Assembly (NCBI GenBank): GCA_001247695.2 | Contig: LGRX02034311.1 | Location: 1-64,000, forward strand | Direction: 5' to 3' | Length of the DNA: 64,000 bases | Origin: Cymbomonas tetramitiformis | Taxonomy: Eukaryota > Chlorophyta > Pyramimonadophyceae > Pyramimonadales > Pyramimonadaceae | Shown: positions 16,685 to 58,622 of the stretch, piece after piece | Position numbering within the stretch: the stretch's first letter is position 1 | Layout: every line of letters begins with the position of its first letter | Position numbers and translations under genes: made by a program | The notes under the pieces: model-generated | Databases searched by the model: none | What the model saw: only the letters and a program-made list of their open reading frames with translations | Told to the model about the DNA's origin: nothing

Positions 16685-16919
16685 TGTTGGACTTTAGGTT
16701 CAGGGGTATTATTATGGGCTCTGATAGCCCCTAGCCTGACCTGTCTCTGATCGGAACCGTGACTCCGCTAGTAGCTAGGATGACAGTACAGTAATACTGT
16801 ACTGTCAGTCATTACTTCGTATTATCCGGGTCTCCGAGATGCATGATAAAAGCACTCGGCCGGACTGTTTATGGGAGCTTAGCCAGTTTGTTTTACCGAG
16901 CGGAACACCTGTTCTCGCA
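16685..16919 (+). repeat. 5' LTR of the Gag-only element
   Basis: This 235-bp LTR starts TGTTGGACTTTAGG and ends CTCGCA. It contains an internal dyad around ACAGTACAGTAATACTGTACTGT and a TTCGTATTATC word also present in the Copia LTRs. Confidence 0.92.
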
Positions 16920-19931: not shown

Positions 19932-19936
19932 GTGTT

Positions 19937-23016: not shown

Positions 23017-23308
23017 TGCTGGATTTGGCATGCCGACAGTGTCATCATCATCTGTGTCATCACCGATACGGTTCGACTACTATGACTTCTTCACTGTCAT
23101 CAGCGCCATCTCCGATATCGACTTCGGTAGTCAGACAGTTCATAGCATCTGTCATTTCACATCTGACACCTTAGGGGCTGTCATCACACTCTTTCGGCGG
23201 AAGCTATAACACTTCGTATTATCTTGTGTATAGCTTCACAGTTTCACGGTTGACATATGTGAGTGTTGCACTTGACTTGTAGTGCTTGACTGCGTGTTTG
23301 TTCACACA
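23017..23308 (+). repeat. 5' LTR of Copia copy 1
   Basis: Begins TGCTGGATTTGGCATGCC and ends TTCACACA. It carries CATCATCATCTGTGTCATCA near its start and TTCGTATTATCTTGTGTATAG, an AT-rich block that may serve as core promoter. Confidence 0.95.
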
Positions 23309-23322
23309 GGTTTGCGCCCACC
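23309..23322 (+). promoter_or_regulatory. Putative primer-binding site of the Copia element
   Basis: GGTTTGCGCCCACC directly abuts the LTR. Its complement, GGUGGGCGCAAACC, reads as the 3' side of an anticodon arm with GCA in the loop, so a half-tRNA (possibly Cys) primer is conceivable. A CCA-end primer is not supported. Confidence 0.35.
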
Positions 23323-23781
23323 ACCGGCCTAAGGTGGTTTGTTAGAACCGCCAATTATGGCTGGCTAAAGCTCTTATAGGGGCTTGGGGCTGAGATCCGG
23401 GCATGAGGTTCTAAACGCACTAGTCACGGAAGGGGTAGAGTGAGAGAGAGGATGTATTTCCGTTCGTGAGCACAATTGCCTAGGACTCAGGCGGACCGGT
23501 CTAGCTAGCCGCAGCCTCCGAAGCAGTACGCGCGTCATCACCAAGCCTCACGACACGATCGCCACCCTCTCTTACCCTACCCTCTCCGCGGCTGTAAAAT
23601 TTGAACCTTTGAACCCGCATTTTGAGCCCCTGCCCTTATTTTTTATAGATTGTTCAAGTGTAAATTTGTTTTCTCTTGCTGAGATCTTTTTAGTACAATT
23701 TTTAGAACCTTGATCACCGAACATTTTGATTTATTGAATTTTCTAGACTAACGTTCGATCACCGCGACTGTAAATTTCACC
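23323..23781 (+). other. Copia leader (5' UTR)
   Basis: A 459-bp non-coding leader between the primer site and the Gag ATG. It is conserved at 58929-59387 in copy 2. No upstream gene is apparent. Confidence 0.6.
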
Positions 23782-30708: not shown

Positions 30709-30881
30709 GTAGCATAATGATTCGGGAATAGATTACTCCAAAATGGGGAATAGAAATTTCAATCTGTTTTTGGGGAATAGGTGTGTGACACATGCATATG
30801 CGTCTAAAAATTTGCGTTTAAATTTTTAATAAAGCGTTAAAATTTTCCCCCCACCCATCTGTTCACTTTCGTTTTGCAAAC

Positions 30882-31010
30882 ATGAGGAAGCCTCCGAAAA
30901 AGTACACTAGGGTGTGCCTTTCTTGCGATAATGGCGGGCGTCGTTGTACTGTTGAACACATTGATGGTATGCATTTTATTGTCCTCTATTCAAGAAAGAG
31001 GACAGGATAA
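30882..31010 (+). CDS. Small Cys-containing open frame inside the MULE-like element
   Basis: A 42-codon frame starting MRKPPKKYTRVCLSC and containing a second Cys (GGRRCTVEH), with a Lys/Arg-rich start and end. It could be a remnant first exon of a transposase or zinc-binding protein, or chance. No family is recognised. Confidence 0.2.
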   Translation: MRKPPKKYTRVCLSCDNGGRRCTVEHIDGMHFIVLYSRKRTG

Positions 31011-31115
31011 AAGATTCTCCATCAAAAATGAAAGGTGCGTTGCCCTTGCTTTCCACGGTTCCCTTGTACAGTTGACTACATAATAAGTGTTAGGAACAAC
31101 TTTGTTTGCGCAAGC

Positions 31116-31263
31116 AAGATTACGGGGCTTTCATTGAACCAGATACGGGGCTTTCGTTGAACCAGGTACGGGGCTTTCATTGAACTAGATACAGGGCTTT
31201 CGTTGAACCAAGATACGTGGCTTTCGTTGAACCAAGATATGGGGCTTTCAGTGAACCGGATAC
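31116..31263. repeat. 26-27-bp tandem repeat in the MULE-like element
   Basis: About six copies of a unit with core GGGGCTTTCGTTGAACCA and variable joints GATAC / GGTAC / AGATAC. Confidence 0.88.
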
Positions 31264-31480
31264 GTAATTCTACGCGAGTTCCTGACCACGATACCGAGTG
31301 TGCAGGCAATTCTGCTCAAATTAGAATGGGTTGGAAGCAAGATCCGTTCGGAATCTAGGATGCTTGACGGTTCTTGTGAGGGGGGTAATCATGGGCGTGA
31401 TTCGAGCCAGCCAACTCGACTCACGCCCAACAGGGACGCATCCTGCACAGCATGAACATATCACGCATATCATATAAGCA

Positions 31481-31695
31481 TAATAAACACATACTGACCG
31501 TTTGGCAGTGCAATTTCACCTCTAGCGGAAACGCGGATGTCAACCGCGTCCACGTTTCCGCTAGGCGTTTCTTCCCTCATTCGCGCGCTCGTTTGCAAGA
31601 GAGCCTGGGCAACGGATGAGGGAAGCGTTAGCAAAAATAGTATTTCGTATGCGTTGTTTTCCCTAAACAAATTGCACAAACTGAACGGTCAACCA
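31481..31695. repeat. Nested inverted repeats
   Basis: Outer arms TGACCGTTTGGCAGTGCAATTT (from about 31496, 22 bp, given here as TGACCGTTTGGC...) and its diverged complement near 31668-31691 enclose two smaller hairpins. One is CTAGCGGAAACG...CGTTTCCGCTAG (about 31522-31564). The other is TCCCTCATTCG...CGGATGAGGGA (about 31574-31622). Confidence 0.75.
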
Positions 31696-32009
31696 CACAT
31701 CTCGTTGTGGGATGACGCGTTCATTTGGCGGAAGCGGGTGGAATTTAAGGAATTTGAAACCCGCAATAGTTGCGCTATGGGGTTTCATCTTCTTTGAAGC
31801 GAAACGGGTACCCACATCATACTAAGTAGGAATATGTGATAATATTTTGAAGCAAAAGATTACTCAGATTAGTATTCAATCTTAGAGATCTTTATTTCGC
31901 TGGACAGGGGCACACTCCCGGAGAGAAAGCCTTCCGCCTTTAGTTAAAATTGCATATTTAACAAATCAAACAGTGAGTATTTTCAGACGGTAATACTTAA
32001 ACACTGGTA

Positions 32010-32400
32010 ATACTTAAACACTGAGTGTTGTCTCGCGTGTTGTCACCATGCCTTAGAAACTCACGATCTCACTCCCAAAGTGACCAAAAACCGTTCGATC
32101 GCCGATCGTTCGGTTTTTGGTCACTTTGGGAACGCGTCTGAAAATACTCAGTGTTGTCTCGCGTGTTGTCACCAAGCCTAAACTCGCGATCTTACTCCCA
32201 AAGTGACCAAAAACCGTTCGATCGCCGATCGTTCGGTTTTTGGTCACTTTGGGAACACGTCTGAAAATACTCAGTGTTGTTTCGCGTGTTGTCACCAAGC
32301 CTAAACTCACGATCTCACTCCCAAAGTGACCAAAAACCGTTCGATCGGCGATCGAACGGTTTTTGGTCACTTTGGGAACACGTCTGAAAATACTTAGAGA
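32010..32400. repeat. Three 123-bp tandem units, each with a 59-bp palindrome
   Basis: Palindromes at 32073-32131, 32196-32254 and 32319-32377 have arms TCCCAAAGTGACCAAAAACC and the complement, with centres built from CGATCG words. The starts are exactly 123 bp apart. The third palindrome is nearly perfect. Between them lie CTGAAAATACTCAGTGTTGT and GCGTGTTGTCACCA. Minus-strand open frames here are repeat artefacts. Confidence 0.95.
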
Positions 32401-32480
32401 AAATACTTAGACAGGTCTTTGCAACCAAGCCGACTTTAGTTCTCACATAAACGTACGGTTTACGCCCTCCCGAATCTGGA

Positions 32481-32517
32481 ATTCACGGCCGTGAATATTA
32501 AATTCACGGCCGTGAAT
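32481..32517. repeat. Two perfect 16-bp palindromes
   Basis: ATTCACGGCCGTGAAT occurs at 32481-32496 and 32502-32517, 21 bp apart (two helical turns). Confidence 0.9.
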
Positions 32518-32639
32518 ATTTCACTGCACGTATGATTGCCCACACTGTTTGCGAGTAAATTAGATTGGGAAAACATTTTCCAACGTTCATAATGCACAAA
32601 GATATATCATTTAGACTCTTAGGTAGGAGTTTTTTGAGC

Positions 32640-33840
32640 TCTTGACTGAGCCGTGGCCGCATCAGCTCAGTTTGCAGTCGCGACTGCGAGCTAAGCTGAG
32701 AGGCCCTTATAACTTTCATGCACATCGCATCAAAACTCAAACAGCGGAGGGGTTCTCGTGCGTTCTAGCGCACGATACTTGGCACCAATATTGCTAACAG
32801 CAATATTGGTGCACCCTCAAACGCACAACCTCTGATGTAAGCTATGCGCAAAACGCGTGCTACACATCATGGGTTTGGGTACATGCAAACCCAAACCCAA
32901 ACATGCCAAACAGCAAAGGGCTTCCCGTGAGTTCCAGCGCCCGTAACTTTGCAAAAGTATTACTAAGATATATATCTTTTAGTTGCCAAAGGCCCAAGGC
33001 CTCAAAAGCCTTGTGCACGAAGCCATCAATTTATTTCTTTGGAGATTTATTGGGTTTGTGTTCGAGTTTACCCAAACCCAATACATGCCAAACTGAAAAG
33101 CAATTCCCGTGCGTTATAGCGCGCGAAACTATGCACACATATTTACAAGACACATATCTTTCAGTTCTCAGAAGCACAAGGTTTGAGATAACTTGTTGGC
33201 AAAACCATCAATTTATTTCTTTGGCAGATCTATTGGGCTTGGGTTCGAATGTTTCCAAACCCAATACATGCTAAACAGCGAAGGGCTTCCCGTGCGTTCT
33301 AGCGCACGTAACTGCGTAGAAATATTGCCAAGATATTTATCTTTGATATATTCGAAGCACAAGGTCTAAGAAAGTCTGTGCACAAAATGGTATTACTATT
33401 TCTTTGACACAGATTTTAGCGTGATATACAAACTCATAAATCTGGGTCAAAGAAATGATATGTTAACTTCGCGCACAAGCTATCGCAAACCTTGCACTTC
33501 AGAAAAGTGAAATATATGCATCTTATCAATATATTTTGCAAAGTTACGTGCGCTGGAACTCACGGGAAGCCCTTCGCTGTTTGGCATGCTTGGGTTTGGG
33601 TTTCAAACCCAAAAGGCATCATGCCAGCACGCGGCCGTCTTTAATATACTCAACGGCTTGCCATATGCTCTTGAGGGTGCACTGATATTGATATGAACAA
33701 TATCACTGCCAAGTTTCGTGAGAAGATTCTCACGAAAACCCCTATTATGCAAAGCCGCAAGTGGTTGAAACCATCTCACACCGCACCAACTTAGCTTGCA
33801 GTCGCGAAGGCTAAGCTGATGCGGTTGCGGATGGGGCCAA
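32640..33840. repeat. Long foldback region with tandemly duplicated left arm
   Basis: Three direct copies carrying CAAACCCAA(TA)CATGC, then CTTCCCGTGCGTTCTAGCGC and TCAATTTATTTCTTTGG, start near 32890, 33070 and 33258. An inverted copy lies at about 33535-33605 (CACGGGAAGCCCTTCGCTG). Further inward, ATTTCTTTGACACAGATTT (33400-33417) faces AAATCTGGGTCAAAGAAAT (33436-33454). Outer partners are the TGCAGTCGCGA words near 32680 and 33800. Small perfect hairpins also occur, such as CACCAATATTGC...GCAATATTGGTG (32782-32810). No coding capacity is seen. Confidence 0.8.
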
Positions 33841-34173
33841 TCGATAGCTCAAACGAAAGGTATTCACCTAATGAATACAAACGCTTTAGAATCGAATGGT
33901 GGAAAAAATTATGCTTCATGCTACATGCAAAAAATTGTTTTGAAGAAGGGGGTGTGCCAGACGCAAAATATTGCACACGCTGAACCGCTTGCGCTTGTAC
34001 CTCCGGGGTACCGAGTACGCTAGTCAGACTGCTTGTATTTTTTTTTTTTGGCGCTCGATTGAATTAAGCATGGTTACATGTGACATATAATCTATTCCCC
34101 AAAAACAGATCGAAAATTCTATTCCCCATTTTGGAGCAATCTATTCCTCGATAACCTTTTTTCCCTTCTATTA

Positions 34174-35053
34174 CCCTGAGAGGCCAGCACGGGTGCTCAC
34201 ACTGTTTGTGTACTCCGATGCTGACCTTGCCAGAGACCTGGAAAACTCAGCTAGATCATACTCTGGCATGGTGATATTCTTCTGTGGTATGATTCTACAG
34301 TACGGTACAGTCAGACAGACAATCACAGAAACATCTTCTACGGGTTCAGAATATGTTGCAGCATCTACTGCAGCTCAGCGGGTGGTGTCTCTCATGTTTA
34401 TGCTGACAGAAATTTTCGGCTATATACAACACCCTATTCAGGGGCAGCCACCCTCTACTACTGGACTTGATTCTGAGATCACTGAGACCGAGAGGGTCGC
34501 CACTGACATTGCATTCAGCTACCCTGGATTACAGCCAGGGACTCTCCTGACTAAACTCCTGGATTACACTACACCTACGGGCACAGGAGTCGGTGGTGTC
34601 AGGCCTGATGGCAAGTCAGTGACAGATGAGCTCGAGATTTATTCAGATTCAGACCGCAGGCCAGTGGACTATCAGAATATGAGAAGCACAGAATACCTTC
34701 CAGCTTCAGCAACCTGCCCCAGATTGGAGCTACCGGTTCCTCTTCTCCTGGATAATGATGCATGCAGGTCTATTGCTGAAAATATCCCACTGTCCCAGAA
34801 GATCAAGCATGTTCTGGTCAGATTCCACATGCTCAGAGACTTTATCAGACTGGGCTGGATCATATGCTGGAGGGTGCCTTCGGAGAAGAACTTGGCTGAC
34901 CCCTACACCAAGCCAGTTCCTCCCACCAAGAACACCGTGCCCTACTTCAATATGCTCTTTGACAGCTACATGGATATGCAAAAGGCAGTGATTCAGGCTG
35001 CCAGATCTTTTGGATTTTCGACATGGAGGCCTACTCAGAAAGCAGCAGCATGA
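34174..35053 (+). pseudogene. Copia RNase H, separated 3' end of pol
   Basis: Continues the Copia polyprotein after the nested element. The visible RNase H residues are VYSDADLARD (first Asp), SSTGSEYVA (Glu), LLDNDACRS (Asp) and NLADPYTK near the end. The stop is TGA 35051-35053. Between the Glu and second Asp motifs lies an extra acidic stretch of about 110 residues (about 34420-34740) that ordinary Copia RNase H domains lack. It is detached from its start codon by the insertion, so it is probably not expressed. Copy 2 is cut by the window before this part. Confidence 0.9.
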
Positions 35054-35667
35054 TCTGACTGTGAGTGCCCTCTGATTTGTCCTGTTTTGGGTTTTGTTTC
35101 TGACTGTGCTTTGCAGGTACTTTGTTGCAGGTACTTTATGATTTGGATTTGAAAATATATGCAGAAAACAACAACCGATAGAATGACAGTTAGCCTAGAG
35201 GTTTAGCAAGCATGCACAAGACCTGTTATGTGAATGTTGCATGCCGTACCTTGACTCCTACGACCTTATGTACCCTTCGGGGACCCGTGACCGGCACCTG
35301 TCTCGTACGTGAGAGCCTCTGCCTCCACCCGCTGTGACCCTCCCTACATCTTCCTTTGTCTGTAAGTCTGACGGTGACGGGGTGACCTGGACCTGCCTTC
35401 GGGTACTCCTTGTCATATCCCTGACGAAGCATCCGGCTGCATGACACCGCGGTGTGCGGACCTTCAGGGCACAGCAGCACTCTATTCCCCCGGTGGAGGA
35501 TTGGCACTAGAGACAGGGAGCTGATAGGCCTGCCAGGACCGTGTGGACTTTGTCCAGCTTTTTGGGGTTTTCAGCCCTGGCAGGCATGATTGTGGTTTCT
35601 TCTGGTCTGGACTGGAGATTGGTATGAGTGTATTCATTCTGGTCTGCCCACCTCACTCGAGGTGGTG
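35054..35667 (+). other. Copia 3' untranslated region
   Basis: About 0.6 kb without a supportable gene. It ends CTCGAGGTGGTG at the LTR boundary, the polypurine-like tract shared with the Gag-only elements. Confidence 0.6.
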
Positions 35668-35959
35668 TGCTGGATTTGGCATGCCGACAGTGTCATCATC
35701 ATCTGTGTCATCACCGATACGGTTCGACTACTATGACTTCTTCACTGTCATCAGCGCCATCTCCGATATCGACTTCGGTAGTCAGACAGTTCATAGCATC
35801 TGTCATTTCACATCTGACACCTTAGGGGCTGTCATCACACTCTTTCGGCGGAAGCTATAACACTTCGTATTATCTTGTGTATAGCTTCACAGTTTCACGG
35901 TTGACATATGTGAGTGTTGCACTTGACTTGTAGTGCTTGACTGCGTGTTTGTTCACACA
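35668..35959 (+). repeat. 3' LTR of Copia copy 1
   Basis: 292 bp, by eye identical to the 5' LTR at 23017-23308. It is followed by the target duplication GAAGA. Confidence 0.95.
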
Positions 35960-36690
35960 GAAGAGCTCCGGTTTGCCGTCTGCAATGCAGCAGACGGCGT
36001 CGAAACGAGCGGCGTCGTTGTTGTCCATGGCGTTCTGGAACAGCGTGGCGAAGACGTCGTTCTCGCTGTCCGCAACGCTGAAGCCGTGTGCGCCAACATG
36101 TCCGCGTGGACCGCCGTGCGGGCAGTCCCGATGCCAATGCTTCTCCGCCGTAGCGGAGCACGTCGGGTTCCTGCACAGAGGAACGAACGTACCGGTGGGT
36201 TTGTGGAAAGCCACCTTCCCCGAAGGCTTCCCACGGAAGGTCTGCGGGAAGTTGCCGTGCTCGGGAAGAGGCTTCGCCGCGAAGCGGACCCCGTCACCAT
36301 GTCCACCGCGTCCGATGGCGTTCTTGTCGCTGCGGGTCGTGAAGCCCTTCGTGTCGTCGATACGGTTGTGAAGTGCGTTGATCTCTTTCTTCATGTCGAA
36401 GAGCTGGTCGCGGAGCTCGCTGAAGATGGTCTTGAAGTCCTCGTCGTCGCTCTGTCCAGTCAGGGCGAGGGCGGAGAATGTGCGCGCAGCAGGCGGGACG
36501 TGCGAGTCCGTCCCGTGTTGTGCGTAGCACTCACGGGTCCATTGCCGAATGGTGGCAAGGGACTCCGCCGCACGTTGGTCGTGCAGCAAAAGCCGGTTGA
36601 CAACCGGGGCATAGAAGACCGGGTCGAGGGACTTGATGAACAGGGACTTGACCTTGTCCTGTCTTCCCCAATCAATCTGATCTGGCATGC
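35960..36690 (-). pseudogene. Copia-family Gag, middle part, fused in frame to the Gypsy pol
   Basis: Reading leftward, the frame coming from the Gypsy PHD finger enters Gag-like sequence at about 36690: QDKVKSLFIKSL, HDQRAAESLATIRQW, then GKVAFHKPTGTFVPLCR and the knuckle-like CRNPTC...KHWHRDC. These align in order with AVKRQFLSAL, ADQRAAVSLL and the FVPACRHEKC cluster of the Gag-only element. The frame then meets the Copia LTR at 35959 and continues, on the far side, at 23016. The N-terminal Gag and 5' LTR of this element are missing, so the junction reflects recombination or deletion rather than a simple insertion. The exact breakpoint could not be fixed (about 36660-36760). Confidence 0.72.
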
Positions 36691-36927
36691 CCAAGAACAT
36701 GTCCTTCTCTTTCAACAGCATCTCCCTTGATGAGATGGCATGCCAAGGCTGAAATTTGTCTCCCTTCACCACCCGACGGGGACCCACGTCTGCTGGCAAC
36801 AGGCGCATCTCCGCAGACAGCTTCTCATTCAATTGCTGCTCCTTCATGCCCAGTCTGTCCTCTAGGGCACCAGAACTCTCGTCTTTCTGGGTCTGCACCT
36901 CAGCGTTGGCGGCTTGCATCCCCGTGC

Positions 36928-37072
36928 CTGAGCACCTGGGACATAGCCACTCGCCTTCTGGTACTCCATCCAGTGCTGGGGTCAGACACCACAAGTGGTA
37001 CCCCCTGTTGCATGCGTCGCACAACAACATCTCTGCTTCCCCATCAGTCTTCCTGCACACTTCACATGCTAG
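36928..37072 (-). CDS. PHD finger domain at the C-terminus of Gypsy pol
   Basis: Complete C4-H-C3 pattern: CEVC, MLLCDAC, GYHLWC and the final EWLCPRC, with the WLCP signature and the Trp before the last Cys pair. PHD fingers commonly bind histone H3 tails. The position after the integrase C-terminal barrel is where chromoviruses carry a chromodomain, so a role in choosing integration sites is a reasonable inference. It is a domain of the pol frame, not a separate gene. Confidence 0.9.
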
Positions 37073-38899
37073 GTGCTTGCTGGGAACGGCTGCACTGCAG
37101 TCATACTGGTCCTTCACCTGTAGGTGACATGGCGCGATGCTCTGCACGGTGCTCTTCTCTCTTAACTTGGTGGCGTCCTCAAGCACCACCACACCATCTC
37201 GCTGTATCTTGACCAGCTTCAGAATGGCAGATTTGGTCGCGACTTCCATGCCGCTGCGAGGCTTCTGCCTGATGTAGACGAAATCGCCCACCTTAAACTG
37301 GTGTGGACTAGGCTCATAGCCCCCACCTCTTCTCCCTTCATAATGTAGTGTATCACGATGCTGTGCGACCTCCAGGCTGCAACCAGCGTGTACCATCAGT
37401 CGCCTCACCACCTGTGCTCTCCGGTGGAGGTCCTTGACTCTGGCATCCTTCTCATCTTCGACCTCAGCACCGAAATCTATGCTGGGTGCCTGTTTCAAAT
37501 CAGGCGGCACTACTGCCTCTTGGGCAAACAACATGGTGAACGGCGCCACCCCCGTGGACTCCTGGCGTGCTGCATTATAGCTCAGCACTAGTGGCCAGAG
37601 CTGCTCATCCCACTCATAATCGAGACCCTTCTCCAAGGCAAGCTTCTTAAAGCAAAACTTCATAGTGCGTACCACTCGCTCGGTCAGCCCATTGCCTTCT
37701 GGTGAGTCTGGCGAGGTGACTCGTCGGTCGATCAGGCAGTCTCTGCACAGCTGCTTGAACTCGCCTTCAAACTCCTTACCTCCATCCACCAAGCACTCTG
37801 CTGGCGCACCAAACACAGCCAGGACATGACTGCGAAATGCCGCTGCGATGGTGCTCGCCTCCTTGTCGGGAATGGGCACGCAGACTATGAACCTGGTGTA
37901 GTGCTCGGTCATGATGAGCACTCGGTTGTTGCCAGACTTGGTCTCTCTCCTCGAAGGCCATGCCAAATCCAGCGACCAGCGATACATGAACGACACGATC
38001 TCGAGGGGGGATAAACATGCCTCCTCTCTCGCATAATGGGTTTTCACACGCTGACAGGTCTCACACTGCGTGACCACAGCCTCGACGTCTTTCTTCAAAT
38101 CGGCCCACCAATGGCGCTGCCACAAAAGATACTGCGTCCGTCTTATGCCCCAATGTCCAGTTCTGGAGTGGTATTCCTTAACCAACGCGAGACGGTCAGC
38201 AGGCTTAGGTATCCTCACCTCCTTGCCCGACAGAGTGACCATGTAGATCTCGTCCGTAGCCTCATCCCATCGATGTCGTGCTGCTCGCCTCCTCACTCGA
38301 CGAACTTCCTCTTCTGGCAACCTCACTCTACCATTGGACTTCAACCATCTGAGGCACCATGCATCATCGTGTACATCTCGATGCTTGTCACGGTCTACCT
38401 GCTGCTCGGCCACGCTGGCCATCAGGTCCTCGAATCTGGTGGTGCACGCCAACCTGGGGAGTCTCATCTCTGAATCTTTGGCAGGCGGACTCCAGGCAGG
38501 CACATCCACGCGCGCTGCTGGGGTTGCGCCCTCCTTCACGAAGTGGTTCTCATGCCTCTGACGATACTGCGCCATGGTGTAGAGCTGCCACTCTTTCTTC
38601 TTCTTCTTCTTCTTGGTTCCAGCCTTCTGTCGCTGGGCCCCAATTCCTTCTGCACCTTTCTGCCCTTGCGAGCACATTACCCGCAGCTTCTCCTCCCAGT
38701 CACGATGGGTCATAGTCTTTGCCACCTGCTGGGTATATGCATTCGAATTCTCAACCCATTCCGCCAGCAAAGCTTGCCTCTGCTGAAGGTCCGACCTCTC
38801 GTGGTCTGCCCAGTTGTTGTCTACAGCGATGGGCTGTCCTGGGGAATTCTCTGCCTCTGGGGATTCCTCGCTGTGAGGGAGCCCCTTCCTGCTCGCTTC

Positions 38900-39900
38900 T
38901 GCGACCGCCATCAGCAGCTCCATTGCCCTGCGATCCATGGCCAGGCCCAGAATGCTTGCCAATTCTACGTCGTTCAGGCCATCGGCCATGCGTAGCTCAC
39001 TTGCGCTGTAGCCCATGGCTCGCGCCTTCTCGTCGAGGTTCACTTCTCGAGATTCTTCCTCGGCGTCTTCATCGTCCTGGTTGCGCACCACGGTGCCCAT
39101 TCTCGCTCTCCTGAACGCTCTTGACCCTTGCGTCGCCATGATGGTGGGAAGTGCCCTCAATGGTTCTCCCACCACGTTCACCACGTAGTGAGGCGCGCGG
39201 TCTGTCCTTATCACTGGCCTGGGATGCCAGCCCTTGCATATGATTGACGATACGATTCGTCCTTCTGGTCTCACCACCTTGCTCATGACGGAGCGAAACT
39301 GGTGGCTCTGGAACAAGTTGCTCCAATACGCTCGCAATCGGTGTGCGTAAGCGCCTGCTTGTGCTGCATCAAAGGACACTGGTCGGCCAATGACGCTGGC
39401 AATGTACGGGAACACCTCGTCCCTGATCTTGGTTCCAGGTCTGTGTGACAACGGAGAAACGTTCTCCAGGATATAGCCTGGAGGCCTCTGCTGCTGCAGC
39501 TGCTGGAGTGTGGACAGAAGCCTGACCACTTCATAAAATAATTTGCTGTGCCTGCCATCCAGGCCTGTGAGTGTTCCAGCAGGGGAGAGATCCTGGCATG
39601 GGAACCCACATACCATGACCCACTGGCGTCCTTGAAGAGCTCCTGCTCGTATAAAGTCGGCACTGGTGGTGTCGCGCAGATCTTGGGGTAGAGCCCCAAA
39701 CTCTATTGCACGGGGCGAAATGAGGTCAGGATATCGTCTTAGCAACGCCGTGCACCTGGCCCTGGCAACTGTTCGACTGCTCGGGGATATGTCCTGATAC
39801 AGGTAGCGATCCACCTTCATCCCACTGCGGAGCAACATCTCTAGCCCAGCACAGAGGCCTCCACATGGCTCGTAGCACACCACGCCTTCCTCCCGAGCTT
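38900..39900 (-). CDS. DNMT3-like cytosine-C5 methyltransferase domain within Gypsy pol
   Basis: About 330 residues between RNase H and integrase. Motif I is CYEPCGGLCAGLEMLL, with YQDIS after it (motif II/III region). Motif IV is VCGFPCQDLSPAG (catalytic Cys, about 39598). Motif VI is YILENVSPL (about 39465). Motif VIII is AYAHRLRAYWSNLF, closer to the AHRxRYFW wording of DNMT3 than to QxRxR of DNMT1. Motif IX is ALPTIMATQGSRAFR, and a motif X-like end is MGYSASELRMAD...ILGLAMDRRAM. The expected reaction is methyl transfer from SAM to cytosine C5. Retrotransposon-encoded DNMTs are known from dinoflagellates and charophytes, so the phenomenon has precedent. I cannot place this copy in a clade by eye. 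Confidence 0.88.
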
Positions 39901-41055
39901 GCGAGAAGAACCGCCTGCCCAGCACCCTGGTGTCCACCTTCTCAGGCTTCAAGATGCGCTCGCCTTCAAAGTACTCATTGCTGTACATAGCAGGGCTTCC
40001 CTCGCCGTGCGTGCCTCGCGTAGGCCTGACCAGGCTCAACGCCTTCCAAGCTGCTCTGGCTAGCCTTCCAGAGTCGGTCACCAGCTCAGGTAAGTCAGTG
40101 TCAAACATGTCCCCATGATTGCATTCTAATTCCTCGCGGTAGTGCAAGTCGAACAAACGATGCACTGGTCCCGTGCCCAGCTGCTCCATGGCAGCCATCC
40201 TGCAGTAGTTGGCAACCTGCACCTCTGGCGTGGCCTCTTCCCCTGGGAAAGCATCCCCAGCCAACATAAAGCACAAGTGGTCACAGAAGTCCTTCATGTG
40301 AACTTCTCCCACGCCTGCGTGTAACGCAGTCACCTTCTCCCTCTCATGCCTCGCTCCAGTCTCATCTGTCGTGGACGGCAGTGGGTAGCGAGACGGCGCG
40401 TCAGCGTTGCTGTTCTTGGCACCTGGACGATACTTCACAGTGAAGTCGAACTCCTGCAAACTGATTGCCCAGCGTAGGTGTTGCCCTTGGAGATCGGCCT
40501 TCTCCATCAGGGTGGTGAGCGGTGAGTGGTCGGTCACCAAAGTGAAGTGAACTCCATGCAAGTACTGCCTCAGTGTGCGCACTGCCCATACCACTGCGAG
40601 CATCTCCCCCTTGAAGCTGGCGTACTGTCTCTCCGTTTTACTCAGGGATCGGCTGATTGCCATACAAATGTACTCCTTCCCATCATCGTCCTTCTGGCCC
40701 AGCACTGCGCCAATGCCATAGGTGCTCCAATCGGTGTACAATATGAGGGGTCTGTCATAATCGATAGGCCTCAGGCACCTCCCAGAACAGAGAGCATCCT
40801 TCAGTTCTTGAAGTGCTCGATCTTGCTCCTTCCCCCAGGCTCCCTTGATGTCAGTGACCTCCTTTTTGAGCAGGTCATTGAGAGGGCGGGCCATCTCAGA
40901 GTAGTTTGGCCCCCCTGGCTCACCCACCAAGCCCTTGTAGTAGTTCATCATGCCCAAGATCGAGCGGAGCCCAGTCTTGTCCTGGGGGCTTGGAAGCTCC
41001 TGGATGGCCTTGCATTTAGCTTCTTGCGCGCCAATGGAGTTGTGACCAATGCGAT

Positions 41056-41671
41056 TAAGGCTGGCACTGGTTTTACCACTGGTAATACCTTTACCGGTAT
41101 TACCCGGTAATTTTACCGGTAATACCAAGGCCCATAATCCTTTACCATGCTCTAGTGTGGTAAAGTGCCAAATTCCCAAAATCCTTTACCATTGGTAATA
41201 CCATTTTGGTATTACCATTGGTATTACCACCTGGAATCACGATTTTACCCCATTTTACCCCTGTGTTACCATGAATCCGTGACTACCATACCAGGTTACC
41301 AGCCGCCATCCATGGGTAGTGGTTCCGTGAATTCGTCTCATCGAAACTTTACTCAACATTTTCGTTGACGGGCCTGCGTGGCGGTGCCATACCCATTTAA
41401 AAATGTCGGAATCGGACATTTGGGGCAGTGCGCAAAAGTGTGTGTATAGATAATGTCCTCGTGGGGGCAGTGCGCAAAAGTGTGTGTAGAGAGAATGGCC
41501 TCGTGGGGGCAGTGTGCAAAAGTGTGTGTAGAGAGAATGGCCTCGTGGGCAAGGTTTTGAGAGTCCCTCGCACGTCGGTATTACCACGGTATTACCCAGT
41601 AAAGTATTACCGGTAATTTTACCGGTATTACCAAGGCCGAAAATCCTTTACCCGGTAAAATGCCAGCCTTA
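41056..41671. mobile_element. hAT-like MITE inserted in Gypsy RT/RNase H
   Basis: 616 bp with inverted ends TAAGGCTGGCA and the 8-bp target duplication AATGCGAT (41048-41055, 41672-41679). Excision with one duplication restores the RT thumb reading DFLGYRIGHNSIGA. Both subterminal regions are dense in TTACCGGTAA and GGTAATACC words. No transposase. An 8-bp duplication with short TA-starting TIRs fits hAT. Confidence 0.9.
41424..41555. repeat. Three tandem units of about 43 bp inside the MITE
   Basis: The unit GGGGCAGTGCGCAAAAGTG followed by TGTGTAGAGAGAATGGCCTC is repeated three times. Flanking open frames in this stretch come from the repeat. Confidence 0.9.
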
Positions 41672-41679
41672 AATGCGAT

Positions 41680-42650
41680 AGCCCAGAAAGTCCACCGTGG
41701 CTGCACCAAAGGTACTCTTGCCTGCATGCAAACGGATGCCAGCGTCCCCCAAGGTGCGCAGTACGTCCTCAACGTCCTTCAAATGCTGCTCAGGCGTGGA
41801 ATCCGTGTAGACCACTACGTCGTCGACATATGCCACCGTGCAATGCTGCAAGTGACGTAACTCGTAGTCCATGATTCTTACGAACGCAGAAGTAGCTCCA
41901 GCTGCACCAAAAGGCATCGAGGTGTACTGGTACAGCTGATTCTTCCACCAAAACGCCGTCTTGCTCCTGTCCTCTTCCGTGGCCATGGGAATCTGGTGGA
42001 AGGCTTTGGTGGCATCCAGCGTGGTCTTGAACTTGGCCTTCGCCACCTTCTGGTAGAGCTCCTCTGGTCGGTGCGGCAGCGTATTGTCTTTGAGGCATTG
42101 AGGGAGTGCCGGTTGACACCCCTGAGGTCCACGCAGAACCTCGTCTGGGTCCACAGGCCAGTCTCATGATCTTTCTTGCCAGCCACGACCACGTTGCTCG
42201 CATGCCTGCAATGCTTGGCTGCTGGCTCTATGAAGCCATACTCCAAAAGTTCCTTGCAATGAATATCGATGATTTCCTGCTCGCCCGGACTGTACTTCCT
42301 GGGGCTCTGGTAGGCGGCCTTGGATTCGTCTACAAAAGGAATGGAGAACGTGTTGTGCTCCGCCTTGCCCTTGTAGCCTGTCAGATCGTGAGGACTGTTG
42401 GCAAAGGTGGTCTTGCACCTGCGGAGAACATTCCGCATTTCCTCCCAGTGCTCCTCCTTGAAGTCAGGATGTCCTCCAAACGTGGCATTGAGCTCAGTGT
42501 CGAGCCACGCTGCCTCGTCCTTGGTCACTGTCGTGTCACCTAGAGGTTGAAGCTCGTCCAGCACGGTGTACGGCAAGACCTCATCCTGCTCCGCGACGTT
42601 GGCCACCCAGCCCGGCTCCCATTGCCTTGAGGATTGCTGAGCCTCCCAAG
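41680..42650 (-). pseudogene. Gypsy reverse transcriptase, frameshifted
   Basis: The upstream part (42606 to about 42115) reads DEAAWLDTELNATFGG, YQSPRKYSPGEQEII, EYGFIEPA and RFCVDLRGVNRHSL. A one-base shift near 42115 moves the frame to HRPEELYQKVAKAKFKTTLD, FHQIPMATEEDRSKTAF, SMPFGAAGATSAF and the catalytic YVDDVVVYTD (about 41825). It ends at the MITE with GAATVDFLGYRI. A second shift near 42650-42720 separates this RT from the preceding frame, where WEAQQSSRQWEPGWVANV is the native reading. RT motifs are all present, but the gene cannot be translated as one piece. Confidence 0.9.
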
Positions 42651-45600
42651 AAGTGCGGGGGACGAACCCCAGGCGCTGCGTGTGGGTGACGTGACATCAT
42701 ACGTAGGCACACACTCGGTCAGCTTGCCAGCGACCCACAAGATTCCGCACAAAAGCAGAAAAAATCGCAAAATTCGATTGAAATGCACTGCGGCTACCGG
42801 CGAGTTCGAAGCGAAGAAGCACGCCATTACTCTCCACCCCCCGTGCGCCAAGCAAGTACTCCCACCAGCGGCGGTGAAGACCACGACTGCAAGGACAAGC
42901 GCCATGTAGGCGGCTTGCGCGATGCGGTGAAGGCGGAGATTGCGTCGAAGCTGCGTCCAGCGCGCCGCGAAGCGAGGCTTGTCCAACCTGGCCGGCAGAG
43001 CGGGCAGGCGTACGCGGCCCAACAAGAAGACTTGGGACCAACGCAGGGACGGAATAGTCCATCCACGGCCACGTCGAATGTGACCTGCGTCCAGCGGGTC
43101 GTGCACGATACAGGAGGCGTGGCACGCCACGTCCTCAGCGTAAATGCTGGCACAAACCCAAAGCCAGGCGAGGACCACGAGGAGGAGGGCGGTCGCACAC
43201 TGTGACCAGCACGCCAAGGAAACGACCACCCCCCCGAAGGGGCACCACCATCCAACCGACCCTCTGCACGCACACGGTGCACGCCAGCATAGATGCCTGT
43301 GGCGCGCACGATAAGCAGCCCAACGTACCAAACGTAGGCGAGAGCCCATAAGACCCAGATGTCGTAAGATGCACGAAGGGGACAACGTCGAGCAGCCGAC
43401 CACCATACGGGCAGTCGGCTCAAAAACGAGGCCACGCAGCGCCTCCACCAAACTTGAAAAGGGCACCACGACAAGTGCCAAGCCATTGCCTCCCACATCG
43501 CCCACACGGCGACCACGGGAATGGGACCGCGTCCCAGCCACCACCAAACCACTGCACTGCCCGCAAACGAGATACACGCCCGCAGGACACCTGGCCTCAA
43601 GTGGACCGCCTGTGCAGGCAGCCCACGGCCACAGCGTTGGTCGCTCACCAGGGCCACCCGCCCGCTGTGCCCGGGGAGCCCTGATGAAAATGCGTCTGTC
43701 TCTGCGCCTCACGTTGTTCGTCCGTACAGTATGGCGCTCGAACGCCTGCGTCACTTCGCTGCATATCGAAGCAGCTGGAGAAGGAGGACACCGCGAGGTA
43801 AGACCGGCCGGCATCCTAGACGCCCTTGGCGCATGGACGACATGGGTAGCAGTCCCATGACGATCGACAGAAGGGGCAGACGAGCGCGCAGCACCGCCCG
43901 CGCCCGGCTGATGCTCATACGTTCGGCTGGAAGGCTGGCCCTGACGACGTGCAGGGGGGTCGCGAACCTCGTGCACATTCCTTCGCCAGGCCGTATCCAC
44001 GTGCTCGGATCTCTCAGCCACGAGAGCCTGATGGGCGGGTGGCGGCGGCGGCGGCGGCGGGAGACGAAGCGCCTCCAAGGCCCCCAGGGCGGGCAGCAAC
44101 CACGGCGCGGCCGATTCCCTGGTTCCCCACTGCAAGCCTGTGAACTTCCGGTCGTCCCGTTCGAAATACTCGTTCGTGAACTCAGCGTGCCAAGTAAGAC
44201 ACCGCGCGTCCTCCAGGAAGATGTAGTACACGGGTGTGGCATTTGGGTGCGCCATGCAGCGCAGCACGTGTGCCGCCCCAATCTCCACGTAGGTACACAG
44301 CGAGTACGCAATGTTCCTCGCATGACCCCCCGGCAACTTGTGCCCTGAGTCACGGCGCGACAGATCAGCGTAGGCTGAAATCATGGCCTCCAGGAGGTTG
44401 GAAGACGTAGTCTGTCCCCCAAGAGGGAGACGCCAGCCATTGTTCCCGCACGCGATGGTCTTGTTATGCTTCTTCTCAACTTTGCTGGTGATACCCGGAT
44501 GTCTCCGCAGCCTGAGACCCCGCTCCTTGTTGCACACGCCAAGCTGGTACATGACGCGCTGGCCTCTGCACCGGTCATAGAACGTCACGCCAAACCGTAT
44601 CATAAAGACAGTGAGGTTGCGGCGGTCCTTCAAGGCGCTAACCTCCTCCACGGACAGAAATCTGCACACTGAACTGGCGGATGTGGTGGCCATTCGTGCG
44701 GCATCCCAATCTGACCCTGCTGGAGATGGAGGCGCCCTCGCAGGGGACCGAGGCAGGCGACCTGCCCGCGGTGGACTCGGAGGCGTAGGAGGCGGCCCCC
44801 CCGAAGAAGGTGATCGGGAATCACGTGCGACACGGAACGAGTTTGCCCACGAGCCAGCGTTGGTCAAGGCGGGCGATGCAGGGGGCGACCTCCCGCGAGG
44901 AGGGCTGATGTCAGGATCTGACGGACAAGCCGCGGTGGCGCAAACGAATCGAGGTGACACCAAGTCCTCGGGCCCATGGCTGCTGGATGAAGGCGACGGC
45001 GTACGGCAGTGCGCGATGTGCGACAAGTGCGGTGGCGAGTGGTCACTGGACCTGGCTCGAGATGGCCCCGCGACAGCTTGAGATGGTCGTGCAATGTGCG
45101 ACGAGCGCGGTGGCGAGCGGCTGCTGGACCTGGCTCGAGATGGCCCTGCGACAGCCCGGGATGGTCCTGCGCCTGCGGCAGGAGCAGGTGGCTGCGCAGG
45201 GGCTCGCTTCGTGAGCCTCATGTTGACCATGTTGTTGGGCGGTGGCGGCCTACGCTCCGCATCTGCCTCGAGTGCATCGCAGCCCTGCTGCCTGGTGTTG
45301 ACCGCCTTGAGCATTTTCCTCATTTCCCCCAGGCGCACGTACTCCTGGGCAGCGGCATTCTCGGAGAACACCCTGCCAGCCCCCCCAAGACCATCCCCCA
45401 CCGGGTAGTACTTGGTGCTCGAACCCAGGGAGACGAGCTCCAGAGGTGGCGCCTCGCTGCCATGTCGATTGTACTGTCGGAGGATGCCAACCGAGAGGGA
45501 CTCCATGTCCACCGGGCAAAGGTACCTGAGCAGCTGGTACGTCCAGACACCAGTGCTCTCGTACCAGTGAGGGAGCTGAAGCTCGTCCAGCAACTCCTCA

Positions 45601-46744: not shown

Positions 46745-47223
46745 CAGTAAGAGTCAACCAATAAGAGAAAGCTACGTTAAGAAACCAGCCAGCTTTTTTT
46801 TGGGGGGGGGTCACAAGTTTAGGAGAAAAGCTGGCTGGTTTTAAAAGTTAAGAGATTGGCAAAAATAAGAAATATGGAGGCTGGCTAGACCCCAGGACAT
46901 TTTCTTAAAATATAGCAAAATAAGTACGGCTTTGATGTTAGAAAAGTCATCTTGTGCGAGTAGACCTTCCCTAACATCACTAATAACTTACCGCAATTGT
47001 GAACGTGTCGCGTCGTCCATCACGGTAGTGGGCGGTTTTTTCGAAGTGAGGATGTGCTGCGAATCCAATACGAGAAAACTGATTTTTCACTCTTAAGAAT
47101 GAGAAAAGCTAGCTGGCAAAATAAGCGGTTTTCTCTTATTTCGTCGGCTCTCTTAGGTACCGAAGCTGGGGGGGAGGGGGCTGACCCCGAAATCTCTGTT
47201 TTCTTATTGGTTGACTCTTACTG
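46745..47223. mobile_element. pogo/Tc1-mariner-like MITE in Gypsy protease
   Basis: 479 bp with TIRs of at least 22 bp beginning CAGTAAGAGTCAACC and a TA target duplication (46743-46744, 47224-47225). Removal with one TA restores the protease frame as THMTLHRL-YAFVTF-type reading (TLHRLYAF). CAGT-starting TIRs and TA sites suit pogo-type elements. Inside, AACCAGCCAGCT and AGCTGGCTGGTT (about 46785-46840) form a hairpin around a T/G run. No transposase. Confidence 0.9.
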
Positions 47224-47225
47224 TA

Positions 47226-49965
47226 GCCGGTGAAGCGTCATGTGCGGCGTGCCCGCAGCCAGTATGACGTCCACGTAGCAGTAATGCGTGAACTTCGTGG
47301 GGCTGTTGTCACACCTGGTGACCTTGGCGCCGGTGCTGGCCTCATAAACCGTGAGGCCCAGCCGCCTTACGACAGCGATGGAGATGATGTTGCAGTTGGC
47401 GCCGGTGTCCATGAGGATCGCCCGGTATAGCATAAGCTCACCACCAGATGACACCAACGCCAGTCCCTCATACAGGGTGGCATTCCGCAACTTGCAGATG
47501 GGCTGCACCTGAGTCATCAGTAACACCTGCTCGTCGGTCAGGTGCTGCTTCATCTTTGCCCTCAGTGCGTCGTAGGCGAAGGTCTTGATGGTGCCAGCTC
47601 GTAAATGTCCATGGTCGCTGAAGTCAACCACCCCCAGGTCGTCCACGCAGGCAGCGGCTGCACATCGAGCGGCGGCGCTGTCGACCACACCGTTGGGCAT
47701 CTCGTCCAATGGCACCTCCTTGATCGCGCGGTGTTCTGCACCATCTGCCTCTCCTCTTACCCCTTGCGTCACTGTGGCGTGCGTGTCCTCCAGCTCATGC
47801 TCGTTGACCTCGGTGGGTTGCTCGGTTGCATCATTCGGACCGTTGCCCATGAGCTCCTCCAGCGCCAAGAGGTTCTCGATGTCCTTCGGGAGGTCGATGG
47901 CGTGCTGGGATATCAGGATGGCCGCAATCTGCGAGCAAGCGCGCACGGAGCTGCGAAGATTGGATGCCAACAGGTGGAATTTCCTGCTGAGCACGTTGGG
48001 AGGAACGGCTCTGGGCACCTGAGCGGCCCTGTCGAACTCCTCCGGCGTCTTGACCTGGAAGCTCTGCATCTTCTGAGTGCTGCCCAAGGCGACAACGGCG
48101 CTGGCCTGGAGACTCGGTGCGTGACCGATGCCAACACCATGACTATCTTCCAGCCCATCCTCAGCAGGGCCGTTCTGCTCATCCTCCTCGTATTCAGCCT
48201 GTTGGTTGAAGTGGGAGTCGTACTCAGTCTCCGCATCACTGACCTCTGACCGGGCCTGTGCATCGGCGCCCTTGTCACCCTTTGGAGGTGCCACTGTCTG
48301 GAGACCTGTCAATTCTGCAGCGAGTTTCTCTTTAACCTCGGCACTGGCCGCCACTTGCTGCTGCTGCTGCTGCTGCGGCTGCTTCTGCTTGGCCTCTGGG
48401 AGCTTAAGCCACTCCTTGGTGGTGATCCCCATCTTGTGGTTCTCGAAGCGGTGCGCGATGTTGTAAGCACGCATCTGGGCATTCTTGACCTCATCCGGCC
48501 ACTTGGAGTTCTGCCTGTCCTTGTGGAAGTTTGGCGGCACCCGGGCCTCACGACACCCCGTGTAGCAGCGCTCTGGAGAGTGGGGCAGGCGCGTGAAGCA
48601 CCGATCACACTGGAACTTCTTTGAAGCATCAGGTGGTGGCACCTTGCTGTAGGTAGGCTTCTGACGCTCAGCATTGTTCACTTCCCTCGAAGGCTTCTTG
48701 GCGTCGTCGCCACCATGCTGTGCTTGCTCCTTCTTCTTGGGGTCCCTGCGTCTGTCCCCAGTCTTGGAGGCAGAACCCGAGCGCCTCATGGCTGACACCA
48801 GTGCAGCCAGGTCAAGCCCCAGCTGCCTGGCCTCGTAGCAGGAGTACACGCAGTTGAGTCTGCGAACCAGCTCCTGCTGCAGTGTGAGAGCCCAAGCCTC
48901 CGCATCGTTCTTCAGCTTGTCCTGCACCTCCACGATTACCTCCAGGTCCTCCCATGTGACCTTGTTGGGGGCAGGATGGCTGACACGTAGCTGCTCGGAC
49001 ACGCGATCTCGGTATTCTTTGATGCGCAGGCCCTTGATGCACTCCTCGATGTCCTGCCTGACGACGGGGTCCTCCACCCTCTTGCCGGTGTTGAGCGCTG
49101 CCTCCTTGCGACGACAGCTCTTCACGTAAGCGAGGCCGTCCTGCTCGGTGGTCTGCGGCTTGGCTATCAAGAGATCCTCCTTCTCTTTGGTGCCCTTCAT
49201 CAGGAATTTAGCTTCGAGCTCTGCAATGAAAGCCCTCAAGGCCCAAAAGTAGTGAGAATCTTCAGTGCCATCTGGCCCCGTGAGACCCTTAGTGGAGGTT
49301 CCCTCGCCTGCCCACTCATCAGACTCTTCGCCATCAGCATCACCTTCCTCGAACACTTTACAGACTGCCCAGGTTGATCCTGGCGCCAGCTCATGGAAAG
49401 GAGGCTGTGCGCAACGCACTGATCCCTGGAAAGCGTCTCTCATGGTGAGATCCTTCAGGACATGACAAGCGTGCGAGGCCATGACGCCATCCTTCAGGTA
49501 TGCAGCGCACCACCAGTCGTAAGCGACTGAGGTTGAATGATCGTCCCCTGCTAGAAACGAGGGCAGGCTATCCCACAACGATCTGAGGTCTGGCTTGGAG
49601 TCAGCGAAAGCCTTCTTCTGCTGCTGTCTGAGCGCGTGGAAAGACGCTGACTTCATGTGCCTACGCTTCTTGGCCTCAAAAGCCCGCTGTACTTTCGCTA
49701 CCATGTCAACGAAACGCCTGATGAAGAGCGCTCTATCCTCACTCTTGCCACCAGTGTACTGGAGCTTGACATCTTCCTTGTCAAGTGCGTGACTATCCCT
49801 GTCATAGTAATCCATCTCGTCTACGTCGTCAAGCGCAAAGAGGAACTGATTTGCAGGCGCTGAGGCTGCTACTGCTGCTGCAAGTGCTGTCGCTGCGAGC
49901 GCTGTTGCTGCTGGTGATGCCGGTGCGGAGGGAGTGGTTTCTGAGCCCGACCCCTCTGCGCTCAT
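47226..49965 (-). CDS. Gypsy Gag and protease (N-terminal part)
   Basis: About 913 codons from ATG 49965-49963, before the MITE. The N-terminus is Ala/Ser/Pro-rich. Capsid-like helical sequence follows (RALFIRRFVDMVAKVQRAF, YFWALRAFIAELEAKF, WEDLEVIVEVQDKL). A zinc-binding cluster CDRCFTRLPHSPERC lies at about 48605-48560. A Gln run near 48360 comes from a CTG microsatellite, then there are acidic linkers. Near the end the protease active site AILMDTGANCNIIS (about 47420) carries the D-T-G-A triad of retroviral-type aspartic proteases. The frame ends in a stop created by the MITE at 47218, and the native protease continues at 46742. Unlike the Copia Gag it has no hydrophobic helix. Confidence 0.88.
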
Positions 49966-51460
49966 ATATCCCGTGTCAAGGTCCTGACTGACTCGCTCTC
50001 GCGCCAGTCGTCGTGCCTCACGTTCTCTGGACTGGGCAGAGGCAGCGCTTGGTTCTGACTCACCCTCCGTGGTAAAGTACTGTGTTAATGCTCAGCTAAT
50101 GGGACCAAGGAAGAGTCCCCTCTCTCAGCGCAAAGCTCGTTCACCAGTAGACTGGAAACTTGATTCAGACTGGCTTAGGCCAGTGCACTGAGTGCCCCTG
50201 GATTCACCTCGCTGAACAAGCGGAAGAACGAAACGCGTGCGGCCAGCGAACGCCTAAAGGTCCAGCACTATGCTTCAGCGCTCTGAATCCGCAGCAGATG
50301 CAGAATATTCGTGCGAGGAGGACTTAAAGCTGGGCCAGTGTGCTGAGCACTTCTGGATTAGCTGGGCCAGAGTTCATCAGGAGCACAGTGAACATGAGGG
50401 CAACTCCACGGCACCAAGAATAGCACTGATACGCAGCGGTGTGAGCTAGGCCAGTGTGCTGAGCACCCCTGGATTCACAACACCACTGCTAATCAAGGGC
50501 ACCGTAGCTGGCATGGAAGCTCACTCCCCAGTCCAGTAAGCAAGAACAAGGTCGCTGTGCAGAGTTGGGAGCTAAGCCAGTGTGCTGAGCACCCCTGGAT
50601 TCGCAACACCACTGCTGATTCAGAAGGTGACCGGTGATATGAGGGCCTCACCAGCTGACCAATACCGTAGAAAAGATAGAAGAATTCTCCCACACATTAT
50701 GATAAAGCACTAGAAGGTCACTCCAGTAGTAAGCAGCACTCCAGGCTGGTCAGGTAATCAACTCTGAATCCACCAGATAACCGTATCACGCCAGTGAATA
50801 TCGCTTAAAAAAGACCACTCAGTTGTCGCCTTCAGGGCTGATGTCGCTGTCAGTCCTCTGGCAAGCCCTTCCCTACTTCAGGCTTAGGCCAGTACACCAG
50901 GGGTGTCCCTGGATTAACCGTCAGACAGGGTGGAGCTGCCCAAGAAACCGTAAGTTGCAGACATAGAGCAGTGACTCACTGCTGATCCGCTTCTTTGCTG
51001 GTAAGTCCAAGCAGATGCCGCCGCTAATTAGCTCCTAGGCCAAGCACACCTGCCTTTCAGCTAGGCCAGTACACCAGGGGTGTCCCTGGATTCACTTCAG
51101 ACAAGGTGGCCAGCTGGAGAACCACTGGAGGTGCTCATCAAGGTGCACATTAACTGCTGATCCACTCTTAGCCGGTAAGTCCAAGCAGATGCCGCTGCTG
51201 ATTAGCTTCCAGGTGACACACACTTGTTTTCAGTTAGGCCAGTGCACCAGGGGTGCCCCTGGATTCACTGCAGAACAAGGTGCTGAGCATATCACCGGGT
51301 AGAAGGAGGCCGCTCATGACTAGTGAATTCAAAGCTGATCCGTTGCCGCCGTCGCTGGTAGCTCTTTCAGTGCAAGTACCACCAAGTTCAGGGAGGAAGG
51401 AGGGTCCGCCAGTGCACCGTGGGTGCCCCTGGAGTCGCCCGACTTCCGAATCCGCTCTTG
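49966..51460 (-). repeat. Gypsy leader with eight dispersed dyad-bearing repeats
   Basis: A core reading GCCAGTGCACCAGGGGTGCC or GCCAGTGTGCTGAGCACCCC, then CTGGATTCAC, occurs near 50176, 50334, 50448, 50574, 50886, 51060, 51234 and 51410. The last three intervals are about 174-176 bp. Several copies hold the perfect inverted repeat CCAGGGG-TG-CCCCTGG. No convincing gene lies in this 1.5 kb, which is non-coding leader between LTR and Gag. Confidence 0.75.
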
Positions 51461-58376: not shown

Positions 58377-58622
58377 ATAGTAAAAATAATCGTATAACGT
58401 AGGAGGAACGTATATCGTAGGTAAAAATTAAAGAGATTGAGAAATGATAATATAATCACGTAATAGTTGCAAAACACAAGAGGGGCTCAACCCGCTTATC
58501 AGCGGGGTGACATCTAGAGAAAAAGCAAAGTGCTAGGCAATAAAAAACTCTAGAAGATGGAGAAGCAGCCATGGCCGGGTGAGTGGAGGGGTGGCTGAAT
58601 CTGAGCGGTGGGGAGGCGAAGT

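Follow-up and report, generated by a model that had tools for sequence, protein, structure and literature searches.

Capture of DNA methyltransferases (DNMTs) by retrotransposons has been documented for a Gypsy element of one charophyte, KnitGypsy-Dnmt3 of Klebsormidium nitens, and for DIRS and LINE elements of dinoflagellates (de Mendoza 2018, PMC5890265); an earlier note on the DNA analysed here had already named dinoflagellates and charophytes. The accessible sections of that report describe purifying selection on KnitGypsy-Dnmt3 and present retrotransposon DNMTs as capable of de novo CG methylation. Those of a 2025 DNMT survey (PMC12344493) list streptophytes and dinoflagellates as the only groups with retrotransposon DNMT3s and leave the companion domains of algal DNMT3s unnamed, and those of Craig 2021 (PMC8226300) contain no occurrence of PHD or methyltransferase. 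A 2015 report noted Cymbomonas scaffolds covered more than 10,000x that show homology to chromodomain, RNase H and cytosine methyltransferase, in the accessible text not as one element (PMC5741210). The window analysed here, 64,000 nucleotides of Cymbomonas tetramitiformis (contig LGRX02034311.1, positions 1 to 64,000), contains a Ty3/Gypsy pol in which a DNMT3-like methyltransferase and a PHD finger share one open frame with RNase H and integrase. In line with the claim of the earlier note that this combination is undescribed, no account of a DNMT and a PHD on one pol was found in the open-access literature, subscription papers and Repbase lying outside the coverage; the same applies to the green-algal spread of the family and to its tail with a second methyltransferase fold. 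We regard it as about evenly balanced that this is a damaged copy of an old green-algal Ty3/Gypsy lineage with an inherited cassette that would both write and read chromatin marks, the PHD guiding the integrase and the DNMT marking element or target DNA.

The frame lies on the minus strand at 41185-35870 and comprises 1771 codons. Pfam matches follow along it in the order RT_RNaseH (E = 1.8e-32), DNA_methylase PF00145 (2.2e-9), Integrase_H2C2 (6.8e-16), rve (3.3e-7; at 30.9 bits slightly below its cut-off of 32.6) and PHD PF00628 (1.4e-11). Together with hidden Markov models (HMMs) of the family, these matches, including the PF00145 and PF00628 comparison that had been proposed as a check, bear out a single frame with RNase H, DNMT, integrase and C4HC3 PHD finger. 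The interval given for it by the earlier note, 36928-39900, does span DNMT to PHD, but the RNase H falls just outside, although in the same frame. The reverse transcriptase (RT) is absent from the 1771-codon frame and lies upstream of it in two other frames. The element thus has the Ty3/Gypsy order RT, RNase H, integrase, the last with H2C2 and rve; a Pfam scan of the pol frame up to an E value of 1 revealed no chromodomain, the feature by which chromoviruses are recognised. The domain order and the extent to which it is conserved, like the catalytic residues and the predicted folds, were established computationally in this analysis.

Two annotated C. tetramitiformis proteins match the window DNMT region at 97% identity. 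C5-methyltransferase motifs I, IV (Cys), VI (ENV), VIII (RxR) and IX-X are all present, with the catalytic residues Cys530, Glu574-Asn575 and Arg616/Arg618. The motifs listed from the letters alone were recovered as GFPCQDLS (residues 527-534), ENV (574-576) and AHRLRAYW (614-621). Among solved C5 methyltransferases DNMT3 is the closest by profile and by predicted fold, and the domain is unrearranged, which upholds the DNMT3-like assignment. PCN in motif IV is typical of DNMT3 and is seen in DNMT3A of our alignment, whereas Cymbomonas has PCQ; the domain is therefore called DNMT3-like and not DNMT3. A phage enzyme matched the motif IV region only, yet at 44.7 bits scored above DRM and HhaI, which leaves room for a kinship with bacterial or phage enzymes.

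Other copies, the search for which had been suggested, were found. Of the 166 proteins scanned, 81 have a full-length DNMT, and all 81 retain the catalytic Cys and Glu; the residue after the Cys is Gln in 73. A rival view, that DNMT and PHD are passengers without function or were fused in frame by chance, is already disfavoured, and we consider it highly improbable: the catalytic residues are kept throughout while the linkers diverge more, and the identical order recurs in several green-algal genera. What favours it is that the window copy is broken and that chance alone joined the last ~260 codons to its frame; chance fusion holds for those codons only.

The family was delimited by two protein searches with separate parts of the frame, the DNMT region (80 matches) and integrase-PHD (117 matches), each of which scored approximately 7990 candidates. 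Matches carry the query domain by construction, and each domain was therefore counted among the matches to the other query. The family integrase was present in 63 of the 80 DNMT matches (in 17 a 225-bit match was lacking, the integrase being absent, cut or weak), 59 of these extended at least 240 residues beyond it (four were shorter), and 56 of the 59 had a PHD. Conversely, 69 of the 117 integrase-PHD matches belonged to the family (48 fell below 225 bits, comprising generic Gypsy elements, unrelated PHD proteins and some cut family members), 52 had both RNase H and integrase (17 lacked RNase H), and 49 of the 52 carried a DNMT. Outside the Cymbomonas group, which in these counts also takes in P0009, P0015, P0019, P0080 and P0126, the values were 46/48 for PHD and 41/44 for DNMT. 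The objection foreseen in the earlier note, that other copies might lack one of the domains, is answered by these counts. E values of the integrase-PHD search drop from 4.5e-50 (P0127) to about 1e-21 (P0128); below this gap stand 28 proteins with an integrase, of which 27 also have RNase H, none has a DNMT and one (P0145) has a weak PHD-like match. Named hosts are Cymbomonas, Monoraphidium neglectum, Haematococcus lacustris, Chlamydomonas eustigma and Pseudoscourfieldia marina, in addition to metagenomes. A copy filed under a Minisyncoccia bacterium metagenome-assembled genome (P0024) is probably contamination, and in P0119 the DNMT is placed before the RNase H.

Three members, P0083, P0086 and P0121, keep the PHD without a DNMT. 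In a 103-protein tree built from RNase H and integrase, P0083 and P0086 group with P0021, P0036 and P0037 (support 0.90) and P0121 with P0054 (0.93), so that the DNMT-less state looks like loss. Distances in pol and in DNMT are correlated (Spearman 0.54 for 70 proteins, the best of 500 shuffles giving 0.23; 0.49 for the 67 proteins outside the Cymbomonas group, best shuffle 0.25). The simplest reading would be a single ancient capture of the DNMT followed by joint inheritance, although a correlation of such size is compatible with some exchange between pol and DNMT lineages. A separate insertion of the DNMT with its own ends, the other objection that had been raised, was rejected in view of the reading frame, the full-length relatives and the co-occurrence counts, to which the apparent losses may be added. 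No host DNMT was recognised among the 72 matches (190-604 amino acids) of a third protein search, which were not examined individually and of which those named to organism are all from Cymbomonas; P0204, from the same search, is a more distant methyltransferase (32% identity) that may lie outside any element.

The three losses also favour a rival explanation, in which the DNMT works in trans on host DNA, altering the host methylome or disturbing silencing, and the PHD serves integrase targeting only, the two being separate modules of one polyprotein. The integrase and a variable linker do lie between DNMT and PHD, and the dose could be large if the high-coverage Cymbomonas scaffolds with a cytosine methyltransferase, as partly described by Burns 2015 (PMC5741210), are of the same family; coverage above 10,000x would suggest that the family is very abundant in Cymbomonas. 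Loose, independent modules would nevertheless have no need of near-total co-occurrence, and we rate this explanation as possible but clearly less probable than the cassette.

The window PHD matches PF00628 at 44.7 bits against a cut-off of 24 and has the C4HC3 zinc ligands. The strict C4HC3 pattern is present in 76 of 104 family PHDs, the other 28 differing in spacing or residues or being cut, and 96 of 99 integrase-PHD distances lie between 174 and 204 residues. Identity between the window copy and six distant members is 51-70% for the PHD, 54-58% for RNase H, 41-43% for integrase, 38-45% for the DNMT and 23-33% for the linkers; the idea of the PHD as the best-conserved part was dropped, as it exceeds RNase H in only four of the six. 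The nearest solved PHDs are those of CHD4, KDM5 (lid), MLL3, WSTF, ATXR5, KMT2D, DPF2, BAZ2 and BHC80, several of which favour unmodified H3K4. PHDs that read H3K4me3 carry Trp at the residue before the aromatic-His pair; the 76 strict fingers have Gly (67), Ala (7) or Pro (2) at this place, and under a looser pattern Gly occurs in 86 of 104. The residue pattern and the nearest solved relatives suggest that the PHD may bind the tail of histone H3, lysine 4 of which would probably be unmodified.

Under the cassette reading, we infer that the PHD, approximately 180 residues behind the integrase core and on the side where chromoviruses carry their chromodomain, would tether the integrase to histone H3, while the DNMT would methylate the element cDNA or the fresh insertion. 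Copies would then enter chromatin already marked, tolerated and quiet until the next move. Several observations weigh against this reading. The protease may cut the DNMT from integrase-PHD, in which case writer and reader may act apart, and the members that keep a PHD without a DNMT imply that the DNMT is dispensable to some. Of the 81 full-length DNMTs, 48 have Glu instead of Pro at residue 529, directly ahead of the catalytic Cys, as in WECQDLS, and these cluster on the tree, although all seven Cymbomonas-group DNMTs keep Pro; Glu at this position is unusual for C5 methyltransferases, and activity may therefore differ. In closer Cymbomonas copies the integrase is better kept than DNMT and PHD (in P0010, 92% versus 73% and 79%). 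The nearest solved PHDs, which include MLL3 and KMT2D besides CHD4 and the others, do not all bind one mark, and the cage place deviates in P0120 (Trp), P0063 and P0066 (Phe), P0117 (Lys) and P0090 (Leu), so that the readers may vary between members. The CpG ratio is 0.66 in pol and 0.73 in gag against 0.80-0.84 in the flanks, but says little, being equally low in an unrelated Copia element (0.67) and high in the middle frame of the Gypsy element itself (0.89). Lastly, window self-comparison yielded no pair of long terminal repeats (LTRs) for the Gypsy copy, the 3' end of which is lost.

Longer relatives carry a second methyltransferase fold past the PHD in 50 of 51 long tails, the exception being the window copy, which is cut there; the family and tail HMMs were trained on the same set that they count. 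The predicted fold appears to be of class I and nearest to METTL5/TaqI, which would place it closest to the N6-adenine type. The catalytic motif of N6-adenine methyltransferases is [DNS]PP[YFW]; motif IV of the tail fold is often degraded, a rough pattern search over 56 tails giving TSPWF in eight, MSPFF in three, TSPPF and MSPPF in one each, no match in seven and other or degraded forms in the rest. A Tudor-like stretch often precedes the fold. Tudor PF21743 matched P0028 (3.8e-5), P0024 (0.002) and P0040 (0.0042), all under the curated cut-off, and was not found in P0044, P0099 or P0112; the 25 families displayed for A1 did not include it either. Outside the Cymbomonas group our own Tudor HMM matched 65 of 82 tails, within it one of 10; with both the tail and the Tudor HMM, 0 of 28 generic integrase proteins used as a control were matched. 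Precomputed G-patch matches (PF01585) exist for P0027, P0034, P0090 and P0122.

An extended form of the cassette would join a 5-methylcytosine writer, an H3-tail reader, a Tudor-like reader and an active N6-adenine DNA methyltransferase, with integration complexes writing both marks on new copies; we put this forward as a doubtful extension. N6-methyladenine marks active promoters in green algae, and if the extension were true, the element could pick a silent or an active state for its own insertion. Large DNA viruses infect green algae, and this, like the second fold, favours the view of the DNMT as cargo for defence or competition, for instance in a contest with DNA viruses or with rival elements; the idea was raised in the accessible text of Morozov 2019 (PMC6338049). 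The sequence holds no pointer to virus DNA, however, and the site inside pol, between RNase H and integrase, hints that the DNMT serves the cycle of the element itself, which makes defence cargo an improbable explanation.

Table. Features of the window; coordinates of the domains found with family HMMs were derived from their residue numbers in the 1771-codon frame.
Feature	Position	Strand	Residues	Evidence or remarks
gag-like open reading frame (ORF) ending in start of aspartic protease (DTGAN motif)	47218..50091	-		Asp_protease_2 weak match, E 0.038, amino acids 892-919 of the ORF
Frame between protease and RT, 1435 amino acids	42540..46847	-		kept in other Cymbomonas copies
RT, two frames meeting near 42097	41672..42696	-		RVT_1 5.1e-24 on 42163-41669
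Insertion resembling a miniature inverted-repeat transposable element (MITE), 618 bp, between RT and RNase H	41055..41672	-		12-bp inverted ends TTAAGGCTGGCA; 6-bp flanking repeat TCGCAT
RNase H	40442..40837	-	117-248	Pfam, family HMM
DNMT3-like C5-cytosine methyltransferase	38900..39910	-	426-762	Pfam, family HMM, structure comparison
Integrase, H2C2 zinc finger and rve core	37604..38212	-	992-1194	Pfam, family HMM
C4HC3 PHD finger	36929..37069	-	1373-1419	Pfam, family HMM
Residual element sequence past PHD	36650..36928	-		similarity to longer copies ends here
gag-like piece of another element, outside the Gypsy element	35960..36649	-		in frame through truncation; bounded by Copia LTR
Copia element	23017-35959	+		LTR matches 100% identical over 293 bp; GAAGA 5-bp repeat on both sides

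The window copy is a defective fragment with a frameshifted RT, a small transposon insertion and a lost 3' end. P0001 aligns at 97% and 99% on either side of the RT frame change; it has no counterpart of the MITE-like insertion, which holds three copies of a 42-bp tandem repeat. Homology to the element ceases at about residue 1512 of the frame, and the second methyltransferase fold is missing because similarity to longer copies stops there. The final ~260 codons consist of gag-like sequence of another element followed by some 30 codons inside the Copia LTR; the gag nature of this piece, which has no Pfam match, was judged by eye from its likeness to other window frames. Upstream, P0080, which also has DNMT, integrase and PHD pieces, aligns at 33% to 49491-48763 of the gag-like ORF, and we take this ORF to belong to the Gypsy element. 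No Pfam family matched the 1435-amino-acid frame, which aligns to P0001 at 77-83%, P0005 at 69-86% and P0016 at 58-82%. By eye, its start resembles the latter half of a protease of the retroviral type, and its later part seems hydrophobic.

The Copia element encodes a frame of 2318 amino acids (RVT_2, rve), and a second Copia copy, 99.8% identical over 5.4 kb, begins at 58618 and extends beyond the window. Self-comparison also revealed tandem arrays at 15895-16687, 19932-21017 and 10377-10833 with units of approximately 175 bp and 42 bp.

Should these modules be functional, a lineage of retrotransposons would itself determine which chromatin state its insertions adopt, and why elements carry an enzyme of the silencing type could be approached by comparing members that have the DNMT with the three that do not. 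Among described systems, KnitGypsy-Dnmt3 shares the Gypsy pol, the unrearranged Dnmt3-type domain and the conserved catalytic residues, but the main text of its report has no occurrence of PHD and calls its repeats DIRS-like (PMC5890265). No Klebsormidium protein was present among the organism-named matches of the three protein searches. With the family described here, DNMT-bearing Gypsy elements reach beyond the single charophyte on record into several green algae. SymbioDIRS-Dnmt3 and SymbioLINE-Dnmt of dinoflagellates likewise carry a DNMT within the retrotransposon coding region, but belong to the DIRS and LINE classes, the former using a tyrosine recombinase, and are described in the accessible text without a named PHD (PMC5890265). 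DIRS elements with a Dam-like N6-adenine methyltransferase resemble the longer relatives in bearing a domain of the adenine-methyltransferase type, as far as their partly accessible descriptions go (PMC5890265, PMC6338049); they differ in class, and the green-algal fold stands with DNMT and PHD and often has a degraded motif IV. Ginger1-9_HM also joins a Gypsy-related integrase to a C-terminal PHD, which there stands beside Ulp1, but is a Hydra DNA transposon with terminal inverted repeats for which the accessible description lists no methyltransferase (PMC2836005). Chromoviruses, Gypsy elements with a chromodomain at the integrase C-terminus, place a chromatin reader on the same side of the integrase according to the available text (PMC3605345), whereas the reader of the green-algal family is a PHD finger, coupled behind the integrase to a DNMT writer and, in longer copies, accompanied by a second methyltransferase fold.
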